Origin: Corynebacterium auriscanis
GTDB lineage: Bacteria > Actinomycetota > Actinomycetes > Mycobacteriales > Mycobacteriaceae
Length of the DNA stretch: 64,000 nucleotides
NCBI RefSeq assembly: GCF_030408435.1
Contig: NZ_CP047046.1
Coordinates: 2,152,572-2,216,571 of the forward strand
Reading direction: 5' to 3'
Under the pieces are notes generated by a model. That model made no database searches. It had not been told where the DNA came from and saw only the letters and a list, made by a program, of their open reading frames with translations. The translations under genes were made by a program, and so were the position numbers. Below, piece after piece: positions 3,630 to 39,533 of the stretch (the first letter of the stretch is position 1; every line of letters starts with the position of its first letter).

Positions 3630-4931
3630 TCACTCTGGATGCGCGGAACTAACGATGCGTTTGCACTGCTCACCCCTTGTACGCGAGCGCTCCTTCACCT
3701 GACATCCCACCGACATCTGGTGCCCCGCTCGCAACACCACATGCCACTGCGTGACCGACCCTGGATAGTGCTCCTCGTACACCACCGGGGATTGTTGCGC
3801 GACTCGCACACCCTCGACCTTTTCTAGCGCCTTCAGCACAGCCTGATCCAAGTCCGCCTGCCGCTGCAACGGCGTAGGTTTCGCCGCAATCAGAACGCGC
3901 ATCCCCGCGTCGTTCGAGCGGTATTCCTCCCGACCTTTTGTCGCACCCGCGCGTTTCCACCCTGGCACTCCAACGGCGATCGGCACGTCCGCGCGAGGGG
4001 CCCGGCGCTCCTCCCCGCTGCCCATTTTGTGCGGATCGGAAAACTGCCCCGCGCTTCGCCCCGGCCCCTTCTTTCCTGGTTCTTTACCTTCGCCAAAGGG
4101 CTGCCGTGGTGGGTCGGAGCTGGGCGTCGTACCAATAGAAGGGGGTGGGCCGGCTTCCTCGTTGTTACCTAATTGCTTTTCTTTATCCGACGCCCCGCTG
4201 TCCCCACCCGCATCCACCTTTGACGTGTCGCGCCCCGTGGCGAACACGGTTGCGACTGCCCCCACGCCGACGATCACGACCGCCAAAGCAACGGCAATAA
4301 CTGCTTTGAGCATCCCGGGCGATTCGGGCGCGTCGGATCCCTCAAGATCCTTGGAATGCCCCTGATCCGGCCGTCGGCTAGCCAGATGCTGGCGATTAAG
4401 ACCAACCGCATGAGGCGAAGCGGTGCGATCCGTCGCGACGCGCAGCGCCTCGTTTTCATTCACCATCCGCGCCCGATACCCCATGACCCGTAAGTACGCC
4501 GCGACAATCTGCGCGTGCACTCCTGCCACCAGGATGTCAACTGTATTCAGACCAATACCCCACGGAAAAGTCTCGCGGGGCGTTGCAGGATTCACGCTGG
4601 CAGCATCTGGGTTTGCCTCGCGCTGTTGGACAACCTCATCCAGCAGAACCGTCAGCTCCCCAAGTCGCGCCACACTAATGTTCGTACCCCACAGCGCTAC
4701 GTCCTCCCCAAGGGAGTGCTTTCCAGAGCCAGCGTTGCTGTTCGCAAGAAGGTAGTCCGGGGACATCGCTTCCGCCGGCCCCTCCACGCAAAACCCCGTG
4801 GATAGGTCAGTCACGCTCATGCCTTGGACGAGAATTCCGGATTCCTGGAGGGCCAAGGCCTGTGCGAGGATGCTCCACTCTCGGGACTGTGGCCGGTGAT
4901 TGGCAGATGCGGATTGGATTGTACCGGTCAC
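3630..4931 (-). CDS. Type VII secretion-associated protein, Rv3446c-like
   Basis: 433-residue protein in the position of Rv3446c of the mycobacterial ESX-4 locus. The N-terminal ~200 residues form a soluble domain without recognised catalytic motifs. One membrane helix follows at about 207-232 (VIAVALAVVIVGVGAVATVF), then a charged, Pro/Gly-rich linker, then a C-terminal domain from about 315 (VPGWKRAG to the end) resembling the TIGR03931-type domain. Start ATG 4931 overlaps the eccC stop by four bases (ATGA), implying coupled translation. It may scaffold or regulate the core complex; the function is not established. A copy of the recurrent TTTCTTTATCCGACGCC element lies inside the gene (4176-4193), encoding part of the linker. 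Confidence 0.75.
   Translation of the reverse strand: MTGTIQSASANHRPQSREWSILAQALALQESGILVQGMSVTDLSTGFCVEGPAEAMSPDYLLANSNAGSGKHSLGEDVALWGTNISVARLGELTVLLDEVVQQREANPDAASVNPATPRETFPWGIGLNTVDILVAGVHAQIVAAYLRVMGYRARMVNENEALRVATDRTASPHAVGLNRQHLASRRPDQGHSKDLEGSDAPESPGMLKAVIAVALAVVIVGVGAVATVFATGRDTSKVDAGGDSGASDKEKQLGNNEEAGPPPSIGTTPSSDPPRQPFGEGKEPGKKGPGRSAGQFSDPHKMGSGEERRAPRADVPIAVGVPGWKRAGATKGREEYRSNDAGMRVLIAAKPTPLQRQADLDQAVLKALEKVEGVRVAQQSPVVYEEHYPGSVTQWHVVLRAGHQMSVGCQVKERSRTRGEQCKRIVSSAHPE
4176..4200 (+). repeat. Copy of recurrent element inside a coding region
   Basis: CTTTTCTTTATCCGACGCCC, antisense to the linker of the Rv3446c-like protein (SGASDKEK). Same orientation as the other copies. Confidence 0.55.
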
Positions 4932-35113: not shown

Positions 35114-35683
35114 TTAGTCGTTGGAGCCCTGGGTCTTGAATGGGAAGCCCAGCTCACGCAGCAGTGCGCGGCCTTCGTCGTCGTTCGAAGCGGTCGTAAC
35201 AACCGTGATGTTCATACCACGTGGACGATCGATCTTATCCACGTCGATTTCGTAGAACATGGTCTGCTCAGACAGACCGAAGGTGTAGTTACCGTGGCCG
35301 TCGAACTGGCGATCGGACAGACCGCGGAAGTCGCGAATACGTGGCAGAGCAACGGTCAGCAGGCGATCCAAGAATTCCCACATACGGTCGCCACGCAGGG
35401 TAACGCGTGCACCGATTGGCATGCCTTCACGCAGCTTGAAGTTAGCGATGGCCTTCTTCGCGGTACGGATCTGTGGCTTCTGACCGGTGATGAGGGTCAG
35501 GTCATTGATGGCACCGTTGATCAGCTTGGAATCACGAGCAGCGTCGCCGACACCCATGTTGACCACAATCTTGGTCACACCGGGGATCTGCATAACGTTG
35601 TCGTAGTTGAACTCGGTGTTCAGCTTCTCGCGAATGTCCTCACGGTAGCGAGTCTTCAGGCGTGGGGTGTAGTTTTCGCTCAT
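35114..35683 (-). CDS. rplE: 50S ribosomal protein L5
   Basis: 189 residues; 5S rRNA binder in the central protuberance. [19 protein letters not shown] and [19 protein letters not shown]. Two bases after rplX. No rpsN or rpsH follows; transcription should end at the hairpin near 35030-35065. Confidence 0.97.
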
Positions 35684-35685
35684 CG

Positions 35686-36000
35686 TTAGATGTCCTTCCC
35701 GTTGCGCTTGGAGACGCGGATCTTCTTGCCGTTTTCGTCGAAACGGTAGCCGATACGGGTCGGATTACCATCGGAATCCACAACCATCACGTTGGATACG
35801 TGGATTGGGGCTTCCTGGGTGACAATGCCGCCGGATTCTGCGCCGCGCTCTGGAGCAGAGTTTGCAACGTGCTTCTTAATGGGATTTACGCCCTCAACGA
35901 GGACCTTGTCCTGCTTCGGGAAAGCCTGGATGACCTTGCCCGTAGCGCCCTTGTCTGGGCCCGAGATAACCAGTACGGTATCGCCCTTACGGATCTTCAT
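35686..36000 (-). CDS. rplX: 50S ribosomal protein L24
   Basis: 104 residues with an N-terminal KOW motif ([18 protein letters not shown]). Assembly initiator of the large subunit. Start codon directly abuts the rplN stop. Confidence 0.97.
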
Positions 36001-36372
36001 TTAGAGCACCTCCGGAGCGAGAGAAATGATCTTCATGAACTTCTTGTCACGAAGTTCACGAGCCACTGGGCCGAAGATACGGGTACCACGTGGATCGTTG
36101 TCGTTTGCCTTGATGATGACAGCTGCGTTCTCGTCGAATGCAATGTAGGAACCATCTGGACGACGAGTTTCCTTCTTGGCGCGAACGATGACGGCCTTGA
36201 CGATGTCGCCCGACTTTACGGTGCCACCTGGGGTAGCTTCCTTTACCGTGGCAACAACGATGTCACCGATACCAGCGGAGCGCCGAACAGAGCCTCCGAG
36301 CACGCGGATGACCAGGATTTCCCGGGCACCGGTGTTATCGGCAACTCGCAGGCGCGATTCTTGCTGAATCAC
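36001..36372 (-). CDS. rplN: 50S ribosomal protein L14
   Basis: 123 residues. [20 protein letters not shown] and [17 protein letters not shown] are family blocks. First gene of this spc-operon fragment; the next ribosomal gene upstream (rpsQ) is 13 kb away, so the promoter must lie in 36373 onward. Confidence 0.97.
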
Positions 36373-37037
36373 TATGAGTCTCCTTGTTTGACCTAGTTAA
36401 GTTTCACGTGCGTGGGATTACCGACCCTCGCGCACACGGTCCGTTGACCTGCAATTCCATCTACCCAGCGCACCTCAGTAAGAACACGTAAGCTGAAGCA
36501 GACGGTGGGAGCGCTCATTGAATTAACGGCGGTTCCACGCAGGCAACTTGGTAATTATTCCATGCCCTGGGGTGGCCTTCCAAATCCGGCATTCACCACC
36601 ACATGGCCACACCGCAGCAGGACAACACAGCGGCAGGACAACACACCAGCTTGGCGACAACGCAGTGACTCGGCGACAACGCGGTGGCTTGACGACACAG
36701 AGAAAGACACTCTCCAGCTGATGCAGCTGCGAGGCGCGCGGCACAACACCGGAGCGGTCGAGCCGCACGATCTGCTAGCGGGCCACCTTCTCGGATTCGC
36801 AATTCCGATGAATATATATATGACTTATGTCACACTTTTGCCAGATTGTCTTACAATTTGCTTTTTTACCCGCTAGATTAAAACACGTCCGAGGCACTAC
36901 CCCGCTTCGAACAACATGAAGCACATAGTGCTGGCATAGCCACTCTCTCGCGAACCCAATGATTAGGCTACGCCAGCATTCACATCAAGATCGATCTTCA
37001 TCGCTTCGATGTCGACACCCCTCCCGAAAGGATCACC
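36373..37037. other. rplN leader and region before the first FGWDE protein
   Basis: No credible gene; an open frame at 36505-36876 is low-complexity. A block near 36650-36700 repeats GGCGACAACGC. An AT-rich stretch (36810-36875) with TCTTACAATTTGC probably holds the promoter of the 37038 gene. Confidence 0.5.
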
Positions 37038-37397
37038 ATGGCTACTAAGAAGAACCTGGTTGCAGTTGCTGCAGCCACCGCTCTGGCACTGACCGCTACC
37101 CCTACCGCTTTCGCAGCAGACGCTGCTGAGGCCCCAGCTACCACCTCTTCTTCCGCTTCCTCCTCTTCCCAGGATGACGCAGCTACCACCGAAGAGGGCG
37201 CAACCGGCTCCTCCAACACCGAGGCACCTGCAGGTTCCTCCGAAGAGCAGAAGGCTGAGCTGAAGGGCTCCTCCGACAAGTTCTTCGGCTGGGACGAGAA
37301 CACCAGTGGCCTGGATAAGTTCAAGACCATCTTCAACACGATCGTGAGCATCGTCAAGACCATCTTGGGCATCCCTTCCCTGGGTTCCTCCAACTAA
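37038..37397 (+). CDS. Small secreted FGWDE-motif protein, unknown function
   Basis: 119 residues. Sec signal peptide with cleavage expected after AFA (~26). Then a Ser/Ala/Thr/Glu-rich segment (about 27-80), then FFGWDENTSG and a hydrophobic amphipathic end IFNTIVSIVKTILGIPSLG. No cysteines. Shares the architecture and the FGWDE motif with the 37918 gene. ATG preceded by AAAGGATCACC. Followed by two hairpins with T-runs. It could be an envelope, pore-forming or secreted peptide-like protein; no function can be assigned. Confidence 0.85.
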   Translation: MATKKNLVAVAAATALALTATPTAFAADAAEAPATTSSSASSSSQDDAATTEEGATGSSNTEAPAGSSEEQKAELKGSSDKFFGWDENTSGLDKFKTIFNTIVSIVKTILGIPSLGSSN

Positions 37398-37448
37398 TTT
37401 AAGGTTATTAGCTCACGCTGAGGAGCTAACTACTTTTGTTGAACACCA

Positions 37449-37488
37449 AACCGCCGTCGCAGGTTCGCAGCCCGCGCCGGCGGTTTTG
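37449..37488 (+). terminator. Terminator after the first FGWDE gene
   Basis: AACCGCCG (37449-37456) pairs with CGGCGGTT (37478-37485), then TTGCTTTCTT. A weaker hairpin TTAGCTC/GAGCTAA stands before it at 37410-37429. Confidence 0.75.
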
Positions 37489-37523
37489 CTTTCTTCCCAT
37501 ACGCCAGCACCACACCCACTCCC

Positions 37524-37541
37524 CCTTTTTTTCTCGACGCC
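37524..37541 (+). repeat. Copy of recurrent element
   Basis: CTTTTTTTCTCGACGCC in the same orientation as the other copies, about 130 bases after the first FGWDE gene. Confidence 0.5.
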
Positions 37542-37917
37542 ACCCCGCACCCCACCCCACAACGCTCCGATGGGGCGCTCAAGATCCCCGAGAACGCAAT
37601 CGGAGTATGAATCCCCTCCAGTAGGTCGGGAACGTTATTGACGGTTCCCCCAACCTACCCCACCACCGAATGGCACGCGGTAGCTCAACGGCAGACGCTG
37701 AAGACTTCGGTCAACGACCGGATTTTTAGTGTCCTATCATTATCTCGCCCCGATTACTCCTACTTAGTTTTTAGTGAATGTTAATTGAATTAGAAGCATG
37801 ATCTTCGTCACTGGGGGTGTGATCTGTTGATAATCGTGCTAGATTATCTTTCGTACCTAGGCCGTGGATGACTAAACGCCACGTGCCACCACGTTTCATT
37901 CACTTCAGAGGATTAAT

Positions 37918-38250
37918 ATGAAGAAGACTCTCCTGGCTCTGGCCACCGCTTCCACCGTTGCACTCGCAGGCACCTCCGTTGCCGTAGCTGAAGAAGAGAA
38001 TACAACCCCCGGATCCGTGTCTGCCGCTCTTTCCAGCAAGGAGGACAAGGCTCCAAACACCGAGGCTCCAAACACCGAGAGCTCCGACACCTCCAGCTCT
38101 GACGAGTTGTTCGGCTGGGATGAGACCGTTAAGCCCATGGAAAAGCTCAAGCAAATCGCGGAAGCGTTCGGCATCATCGTAACTGTCGTTGGTGGAATCG
38201 CCACGCTGGTCGCTAGCTTCCAGAAGATCGCAGATTCCTTCAAGAAGTAA
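37918..38250 (+). CDS. Small secreted FGWDE-motif protein, second member
   Basis: 110 residues. Sec signal peptide with cleavage expected after AVA (~24). Acidic Ser/Thr/Glu/Pro stretch with a duplicated APNTE, then SSDELFGWDE and a hydrophobic helix AFGIIVTVVGGIATLVASF ending in KKIADSFKK-like basic residues. Same plan as the 37038 gene but with little identity outside the motif, so an old duplication. Ribosome site AGAGGA precedes ATG. It has its own terminator. Confidence 0.85.
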   Translation: MKKTLLALATASTVALAGTSVAVAEEENTTPGSVSAALSSKEDKAPNTEAPNTESSDTSSSDELFGWDETVKPMEKLKQIAEAFGIIVTVVGGIATLVASFQKIADSFKK

Positions 38251-38304: not shown

Positions 38305-38343
38305 AAACTCGCTAGGCACACATGCTGCTCTAGCGAGTTTTTC
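38305..38343 (+). terminator. Terminator after the second FGWDE gene
   Basis: Perfect 11-bp stem AAACTCGCTAG/CTAGCGAGTTT followed by TTCATATTT. Confidence 0.9.
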
Positions 38344-38441
38344 ATATTTCTAAGCTCTCACCTCAGGGTTAAACGACCAATTAGGGGTTTTATCGTTGAA
38401 CCCTCACTTCATTCCAACGAAGGGTTTCATTCCAGGGTAGG

Positions 38442-38460
38442 TAAGGGTAAGCTAACCATC
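38442..38460 (+). promoter_or_regulatory. DtxR-like iron box before the siderophore-interacting protein
   Basis: TAAGGGTAAGCTAACCATC, close to the DtxR consensus TTAGGTTAGGCTAACCTAA. It lies directly against the ATG at 38464, where a bound repressor would block transcription. Confidence 0.75.
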
Positions 38461-38463
38461 GCT

Positions 38464-39393
38464 ATGAATGTTGCCACACCGCAGGTCAGCAAACTGACCG
38501 TCTCCCCCACCCGGCGGAACGCCTTCACCGACCACCAGCTGGTCGATCCCCCGCAAGCCGCGGGGCATGAGCTGTTCCGAGCCACCATTCACGAGATCAC
38601 GTCTCCATCACACCGGTTGCGCCGCATCACGCTCCACTCCCCCTCCTTCGCGACGTATCAACTCTCCGGTCCTGACGAGTTCTTCGGCCTCCTCATGCCA
38701 CAACCCGGCACCCCGCTACACCTCCCACAGCAAACTAAAGGCGAAAACCTTCGCGCCGCAGTGGCCGAGATGCCCGCAGAGATCCGGCCCAACCTGCGTT
38801 GGTACACAGTACGGCAGTTCGATCCCCTGAACTGCACACTGACCTTCGACATCGTGACGCACGGTGTCACCCTGGAAGACCTCGAGGTCGGGCACGACAT
38901 TGGCCCTGGGCTGCGCTGGTGCCTGACAGCCCAGGTGGGTTCAGAAGTTGGACTATGGACCGCGCACGGACTGTGGCATCGCGCTGCTCCGGCGCAGACT
39001 CTTATCGCCGACCCCTCAGCGCTGCCATCACTGCGTGCGATCTTGGAATACACCCAGACCTTTGCCCCGAAACAGCTGCGCGACATGCACGTTATCGCAG
39101 TTGCTGAAACCGCCGAAGATATTGAGCCACATCTGCTTTCGGAATGGCAGGAAAAACTAGGGAGCGTGGAACTGCTGTTTTGCCCGGTCGCCGAGTTCAC
39201 CTCGCAGACCGTGCGGTTACTGCAGCGCATCGATGCCGTCGAGCATCCCGCTCGGTTCTCCCAGTACGTCTGGGTTGCCGGTGAGGGTGACCTATGCAAG
39301 AACGTCCGCCGCCACTGTGTTTACACATGGAAGCTTGAGACCTCCGCCGTGCAGTGGTGCCCATACTGGTTCCTAGGGAAAGCGCGACCTTAG
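38464..39393 (+). CDS. Siderophore-interacting protein (ViuB/SIP-type ferric reductase)
   Basis: 309 residues, cytosolic flavoprotein family that releases iron from ferric siderophores with NAD(P)H. RWYTVRQFDP corresponds to the flavin-binding RxYT block; ADPSALPSL and VWVAGEGDLCKNVRRH fit the nucleotide-binding half; C-terminus WCPYWFLGKA. Preceded by a DtxR-like box, so likely made under iron limitation. Neighbour of the siderophore synthesis operon. Confidence 0.9.
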   Translation: MNVATPQVSKLTVSPTRRNAFTDHQLVDPPQAAGHELFRATIHEITSPSHRLRRITLHSPSFATYQLSGPDEFFGLLMPQPGTPLHLPQQTKGENLRAAVAEMPAEIRPNLRWYTVRQFDPLNCTLTFDIVTHGVTLEDLEVGHDIGPGLRWCLTAQVGSEVGLWTAHGLWHRAAPAQTLIADPSALPSLRAILEYTQTFAPKQLRDMHVIAVAETAEDIEPHLLSEWQEKLGSVELLFCPVAEFTSQTVRLLQRIDAVEHPARFSQYVWVAGEGDLCKNVRRHCVYTWKLETSAVQWCPYWFLGKARP

Positions 39394-39514: not shown

Positions 39515-39533
39515 TTAGGTAAGCCTACCCTTG
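39515..39533 (+). promoter_or_regulatory. DtxR-like iron box before the siderophore operon
   Basis: TTAGGTAAGCCTACCCTTG, starting as a perfect half-site TTAGGT. It lies 15 bases before ATG 39548 and would control desA-desB-desCD. Confidence 0.75.

Follow-up and report, generated by a model that had tools for sequence, protein, structure and literature searches.

The window, the whole 64,000-nucleotide stretch of Corynebacterium auriscanis DNA analyzed here, contains two neighbouring genes, A and B, which encode small proteins predicted to be exported (Table 1). A preliminary description of this DNA had given the two genes a shared plan, and both open reading frames (ORFs) are present with every part described: each product has a Sec-type N-terminus, an acidic spacer rich in Ser, Thr and Glu, the motif SSD-x-(F/L)-FGWDE and a hydrophobic segment at the C-terminus. 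The two products follow the plan of what is defined here as the FGW family: a signal peptide, a spacer, the block G-S-x-D-x-F-F-G-W-D-E and a C-terminal helix. The signal peptides and helices are predicted, and the A-x-A cleavage sites of the former were placed by an untrained crude rule of our own making. The spacer of A has a net charge of -8 and is modelled by AF2 with low confidence. For the C-terminal block the pLDDT is 73-74 in A, with a hydrophobic moment of 0.41 for the helix, and 63-66 in B, with a mean hydrophobicity of 0.79. The hydrophobic amphipathic end ascribed to both proteins holds for A, whereas the end of B is more hydrophobic and has a cationic tail. The AF2 models have a mean pLDDT of 52-53 and show no pore, since they are of single chains. 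The hairpin downstream of gene A is weak because the scan found 4 such sites where 1.9 are expected by chance.

Table 1. Positions of genes A and B, their parts and their neighbours in the window
Feature	Position	Strand	Basis
Gene A, 119 aa, small predicted exported protein, amphipathic-helix (A) class	37038..37397	+	ORF, translation, relatives
GAAAGGA, ribosome-binding-like, 5' of gene A	37026..37032	+	read from sequence, putative
Gene A predicted Sec signal peptide, residues 1-26 (..AFA/AD..)	37038..37115	+	crude rule
Gene A acidic Ser/Thr/Glu-rich spacer, residues 27-76, with two earlier GSS copies	37116..37265	+	sequence
Gene A motif GSSDKFFGWDE, residues 77-87; S78 is the -5 serine	37266..37298	+	
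Gene A predicted C-terminal amphipathic helix, residues 91-109	37308..37364	+	AF2, hydrophobic moment
Gene A C-terminal GSSN, candidate acyl-acceptor serines	37383..37394	+	Ser pattern of the class; acylation putative
Terminator-like hairpin 3' of gene A	37408..37429	+	hairpin scan, weak
Gene B, 110 aa, small predicted exported protein, hydrophobic-helix (B) class	37918..38250	+	ORF, translation
AGAGGA, ribosome-binding-like, 5' of gene B	37907..37912	+	read from sequence, putative
Gene B predicted Sec signal peptide, residues 1-24 (..AVA/EE..)	37918..37989	+	crude rule
Gene B motif SSSDELFGWDE, residues 59-69; S60 is the -5 serine	38092..38124	+	
Gene B predicted C-terminal helix, residues 73-109, VGGI core and cationic tail	38134..38244	+	AF2
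Hairpin CTCGCTAG..CTAGCGAG followed by T5, 3' of gene B	38308..38342	+	sequence read; missed by hairpin scan
rplN, divergent conserved neighbour	36001..36372	-	near FGW genes in 17 of 21 genomes
rplX	35686..36000		listed with rplN
rplE	35114..35683		listed with rplN

The two proteins are identical at 39 of 106 aligned positions (37%, E 4e-11 in a single comparison that includes the signal peptide). A degenerate DNA pattern for FGW[DN]E, searched with 0 mismatches, has 2 sites in the entire genome (one contig of 2.6 Mb), only those in genes A and B, and the reversed control pattern has 0. In a protein database of 5.8 billion sequences, B retrieves 12 proteins and A retrieves 2 (E <= 10), and a mixed-profile search of the same database yields 44 proteins (E <= 0.001) among the 7991 candidates sharing most words. 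The relatives carry the name Corynebacterium in every case where an organism is given. Those of gene A are P0015 and P0016 from the protein database together with the A genes of other Corynebacterium genomes.

The family set comprises 69 distinct sequences from the database and from genome loci, the window's two included; P0047 and P0048 have no real FGW block and were dropped from these counts. The FGW triplet is exact in 58/69 relatives and xGW is found in 66/69, a constancy of the Trp that is partly circular since the genome-derived rows were picked by the motif itself; the database sequences were chosen independently of it. A serine at position -5 occurs in 55 of the 69, well above the 12.3% Ser found in the spacers of 71 rows, and a glycine at -6 occurs in 32. 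When near-copies are removed, 49 sequences are left, with FGW in 42 and the -5 serine in 39. The consensus across relatives is G-S-x-[DN]-K-F-F-G-W-[DN]-[ED]-x-T-[ST]-G-L-x-K, and its core is (F)GW with the upstream Gly-Ser. The constraint earlier ascribed to FGWDE thus stands for the FGW block, but the DE is loose (the full FGWDE is found in 24/69). The C-terminal helix is also conserved inside each orthologue group in the alignments; therefore, the motif is not the sole constrained part. No cysteine is present in any of the 69 relatives, signal peptide included, so the FGW proteins are not lipoproteins, which would need a lipobox cysteine.

The relatives fall into two classes by their ends. 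A-class proteins finish in a short amphipathic helix (moment about 0.4-0.6), and 16 of 24 have a serine among their three final residues, compared with 0 of 45 in the B class. The helix of B-class proteins is more hydrophobic, and most of these proteins (40/45) have a lysine at or adjoining the end. On the tree the two classes are strongly clustered, with two changes each against a shuffled mean of about 10; neither class forms one side of a branch, and a single origin is not given by it. The spacer has one or two extra GSIDDEKKEKLK-like units before the GW motif in A genes from the C. jeikeium group (L069-L074, L168-L172).

Searches against known families agree with the earlier statement that no named family has this motif, since no Pfam or NCBIfam cut-off was reached by A, B or the relatives scanned. 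Neither A nor B matched a Pfam or NCBIfam model at its curated cut-off. The best result for 22 members against Pfam is New_glue (E 0.0017, 18.5 bits against a cut-off of 31), and for 20 further members against NCBIfam it is acid_shock_Asr (25.5 bits against a cut-off of 50). Family-library matches of FGW members mostly begin in the signal peptide or sit in the low-complexity spacer. The relative P0035 has the precomputed accession PF26373, which is outside the Pfam set searched; therefore, a newer Pfam family is possible. A PHROGs search of the family gave nothing convincing. Against solved structures nothing was found for B, and A has one chance-level match (E 0.45). No description of the FGW family, by its motif or as secreted proteins beside rplN, was found in the literature open without subscription.

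The motif recurs in other Corynebacterium genomes, as the motif search proposed in the preliminary description had called for. Whole-protein profile searches of the genus gave matches in 111 and 82 of 242 genomes (E <= 0.01). Because many of the weaker matches covered little beyond the signal peptide, the C-terminal block was used as the query instead. The block search finds 26 of the 242 Corynebacterium genomes at E <= 0.01 and 21 below 1e-6, scores that are partly circular for these 21 since many of them supplied profile rows. The five weaker genomes (G012, G039, G050, G094 and G140; E 1.9e-4 to 0.0056) were left uncounted. Among 298 genomes of the order, a strong match is found in the host genome alone. 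The carriers with a name comprise C. suicordis, two strains of C. jeikeium and three entries given as Corynebacterium sp., and the protein names add C. auriscanis. The B alignment gave no match in an early scan of named genomes, and of 62 stretches in viral contigs that fit a pattern 0 were confirmed. Two other candidates were rejected by reading: the ORF matched in the order set (G258, E 0.009) looks like a peptidyl-prolyl isomerase, and the one matched in a Lachnospiraceae MAG (L174) is 457 aa long and begins like a metallopeptidase. In the sets searched there is no believable match outside Corynebacterium.

The genomic place is conserved as well. An FGW gene lies near rplN in 17 of the 21 strong-match genomes, within about 3 kb in 16 of them and at about 6 kb in G007. 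In the C. jeikeium group B is upstream of rplN and A is beyond the far side of rplN-rplX-rplE. The four exceptions are G025, by coordinates, and G017, G147 and G218, in which the 12-16 kb around the FGW gene contain no rplN. Two FGW genes are present in 10/21 genomes and a single one in 11/21, including G142, whose rplN is closest to that of the host and which has B and no A in the rplN region examined. Since 11 genomes have one such gene, the two-component secreted factor suggested earlier is unsupported as an obligate pair.

The location beside an iron module had been mentioned as possibly relevant. Two DtxR-like boxes occur in the window, at 38437-38455 and 39515-39533, each with 3 mismatches where 0.01 matches are expected, and they precede the downstream genes at 38464 and 39548. 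No such box was found before A or B in the window scan. The boxes lie before the downstream genes and the conserved neighbour is rplN, so on this evidence the iron module has no bearing on A and B, and iron regulation of the two genes is not supported.

Ten other Corynebacterium genomes (L115, L117, L124-L130, L132) have small FGW-less proteins encoded upstream of rplN, one to several per place, with signal-like N-termini and GS-rich acidic spacers. They resemble A and B in place, signal-peptide style, spacer and a hydrophobic C-terminal stretch, but FGW is absent. Profile comparison of the FGW family with two subgroups of these proteins gave probabilities of 8% and 11% and no relation.

The case for A and B being abundant is made most strongly by their codon usage. 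The index takes as its reference 13 ribosomal-protein ORFs in the window: rplN, rplX, rplE and ten others, which we take to be ribosomal from operon order and size. When each is left out in turn, the reference ORFs score 0.50-0.81. Gene A has an index of 0.824 and gene B of 0.607. For the 40 ORFs in the window that reach 200 aa, two of them reference genes and some probably not genes, the median is 0.37. A exceeds all 40 of these ORFs and B exceeds 36. In 500 random synonymous recodings with the window background, the mean is 0.36 for A (largest 0.48) and 0.38 for B (largest 0.535). Seven other loci with both genes give 0.69-0.83 for A and 0.74-0.83 for B, and one B-only locus gives 0.74, with an index that draws on only 2-3 ribosomal genes per locus. 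Other long ORFs in those loci score 0.25-0.65, and up to 0.76 in one locus (L066). In the porin controls PorB has 0.65 and PorC 0.58, against 0.31-0.45 for six other ORFs of the same genome; the PorB control is 126 residues long and ends in NFSS, as given for C. glutamicum in part of a published account (PMC5310785). High codon adaptation shows selection for expression and is uninformative on location.

The codon usage speaks against a toxin or bacteriocin. An alternative in which A and B are surface-active peptides cut from a Sec precursor and secreted, as modulin-like surfactants or bacteriocin-like peptides, is quite improbable. The short amphipathic C-termini of the A class would suit such peptides and the spacer could serve as a pro-region. 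However, the codon usage and the conserved place by rplN look like housekeeping, neither A nor B shows a double-glycine leader, and the listed ORFs include, by reading rather than by family scan, no obvious immunity or dedicated export gene. The C-terminus of gene B is conserved through its last residue among close relatives, which also argues against this alternative, as does the sole bacteriocin-like NCBIfam model listed, JUQZ_fam_ocin, at 9.3 bits under a cut-off of 40.

The host has genes for mycolate synthesis and mycoloyltransferase-like genes. A FadD32 exceeds its curated cut-off, and a second esterase adjoins an esterase-LGFP protein; the esterase-LGFP build is presumably a mark of mycoloyltransferases. 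Mapped O-mycoloylation sites, in the portion of PMC11066868 that treats them, are mostly serines among Gly, Ala and Ser in flexible stretches, are often clustered and follow no strict consensus. In ProtX the acylated residue is the penultimate serine, and the PorH acylation site lies within a C-terminal NFSS common to PorB, as stated in sections of PMC5310785. The serine pattern of the FGW proteins appears compatible with O-mycoloylation. Since mycoloylation has no strict consensus in those passages of PMC11066868, a Gly-Ser near FGW proves little, and the argument is weakened by the spacer being serine-rich anyway.

It is somewhat probable that A and B are abundant mycomembrane proteins. Export via Sec is predicted for their products, mycolate is probably added to serines adjoining the FGW block and in A also near the C-terminus, and the C-terminal helix would hold the proteins in the mycomembrane. 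Exported proteins that are cysteine-free, hydrophobic-ended and serine-decorated in a mycolate bacterium would argue for fixation there by O-mycoloylation together with the helix. Such proteins are known to form pores, and A and B could be likely abundant subunits that oligomerize into a small helical pore. That they form a channel is a tentative suggestion and on balance unlikely; a fixed A plus B pore would not be general, because only one such gene is present in 11/21 genomes. From sequence we infer export, abundance, acylation, membrane insertion, oligomerization and channel activity. The mycomembrane role put forward in the preliminary description fits the codon usage, the composition and the mycolate genes of the host, and the lower index of gene B in the window (0.61) was counted against it. 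If A and B are abundant, they would be major surface proteins of C. jeikeium and of other Corynebacterium species without a PF11565 PorB and would bear on permeability and phage entry.

An inner-membrane location of the exported proteins is unlikely. The plasma membrane would then contain the helix of B and carry the amphipathic helix of A on its surface, with the acidic spacer spanning the wall, giving an abundant wall-spacing or scaffold protein without mycolate. The helix of B is as hydrophobic as a membrane-spanning one and has a cationic tail, and the spacer is long, acidic and poorly conserved, as this alternative would have it. A-class helices, however, are amphipathic and not plainly membrane-spanning, the serines near the motif and at the C-terminus would be left without a role, and the known small helical proteins for which high codon adaptation was seen in this analysis are porins of the mycomembrane or the PorA-like ORF.

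The mycomembrane reading can be compared with known systems. PorB and PorC (PF11565) resemble A and B in being small and Sec-signal-bearing, with Ser-rich ends, adjacent genes and high codon adaptation. They are mycomembrane proteins according to the literature, whereas for A and B this location is proposed here. PorB has cysteines and, in a section of PMC5310785, a compact fold; the FGW proteins in contrast have no cysteine and a predicted disordered spacer plus helix. Comparison of the FGW C-terminal block with four PorB/PorC rows by hhalign gave a probability of 0.2%. PF11565 has 0 matches in the host genome and matches in the C. glutamicum control genome. It is found in 108/242 genomes and, among the 21, only in the four rplN exceptions; a profile search did not find it in the 17 genomes with rplN-linked FGW genes. 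The split is suggestive, but the absence of PorB from these 17 is confounded by common descent, and shared descent explains it equally well as replacement does.

The preliminary description had also stated that the small helical porins of corynebacteria lack signal peptides. This is right for PorA and PorH, but PorB and PorC have putative Sec signals according to part of PMC5310785. PorA/PorH and PorACj are like A and B in being tiny helical proteins at a conserved chromosomal place; theirs is between groEL2 and ppk2 in an excerpt of PMC3792995. They differ in length (45, 57 and 40 aa against 119 and 110 aa), and PorA/PorH are without a signal sequence in the relevant passage of PMC5310785, whereas A and B have predicted ones. 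With these signals, lengths of 119 and 110 aa and a place beside rplN instead of groEL2-ppk2, A and B are not PorA/PorH proteins. The host genome has a distinct 38-aa ORF without a signal peptide (L225:2662-2778, plus strand, at about 432.2 kb) between groEL (PF00118) and ppk2 (PF03976). Its index of 0.81 shows that it is codon-adapted, as are A and B, and from place, size and codon usage it is a probable PorA-type porin.

ProtX (cg2875) is small like A, and its mycoloylated penultimate C-terminal serine resembles what the C-terminal serines of A might be. It differs from A and B in having 38 residues, no classical signal sequence and no known homologues, as reported in a portion of PMC5310785; the FGW proteins are set apart from ProtX and PorA/PorH by description only. 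A ProtX-like role, in which the main effect of A and B is that of a surface coat or phage receptor and not of transport, is decidedly improbable. It draws on ProtX being small, predicted helical, mycoloylated and needed for Cog phage adsorption in the part of PMC9671496 concerned, and on the variable spacer beside a fixed anchor block in the alignments, which is typical of surface-exposed loops. The spacer variation may, however, be mere drift of disordered sequence.

Within the mycomembrane reading, the G-S-x-[DN]-K-F-F-G-W block might be a mycomembrane sorting signal read by a mycoloyltransferase or a sorting partner, which we consider quite unlikely. If true, it would be the first sequence motif read in this way. 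Mycolate on the Gly-Ser serine would lead to insertion of the following helix, whatever its sequence, into the mycomembrane, and A and B would form a second porin system, specific to the lineage and with an addressing tag of its own. A conserved compact block beside an acyl-acceptor-like serine, in apparently highly expressed genes, is a testable candidate for an addressing signal.

Three other small secreted genes of the host genome have indices of 0.81, 0.68 and 0.485. The first two values belong to small genes that adjoin each other at about 292 kb on the minus strand (L216:4063-4476 and 4531-4887). Both encode a Sec-like signal and a hydrophobic C-terminus, and the first has a GSDLLWRIGN block with look-alikes in P0047 and P0048. 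This pair is likely another abundant envelope pair.
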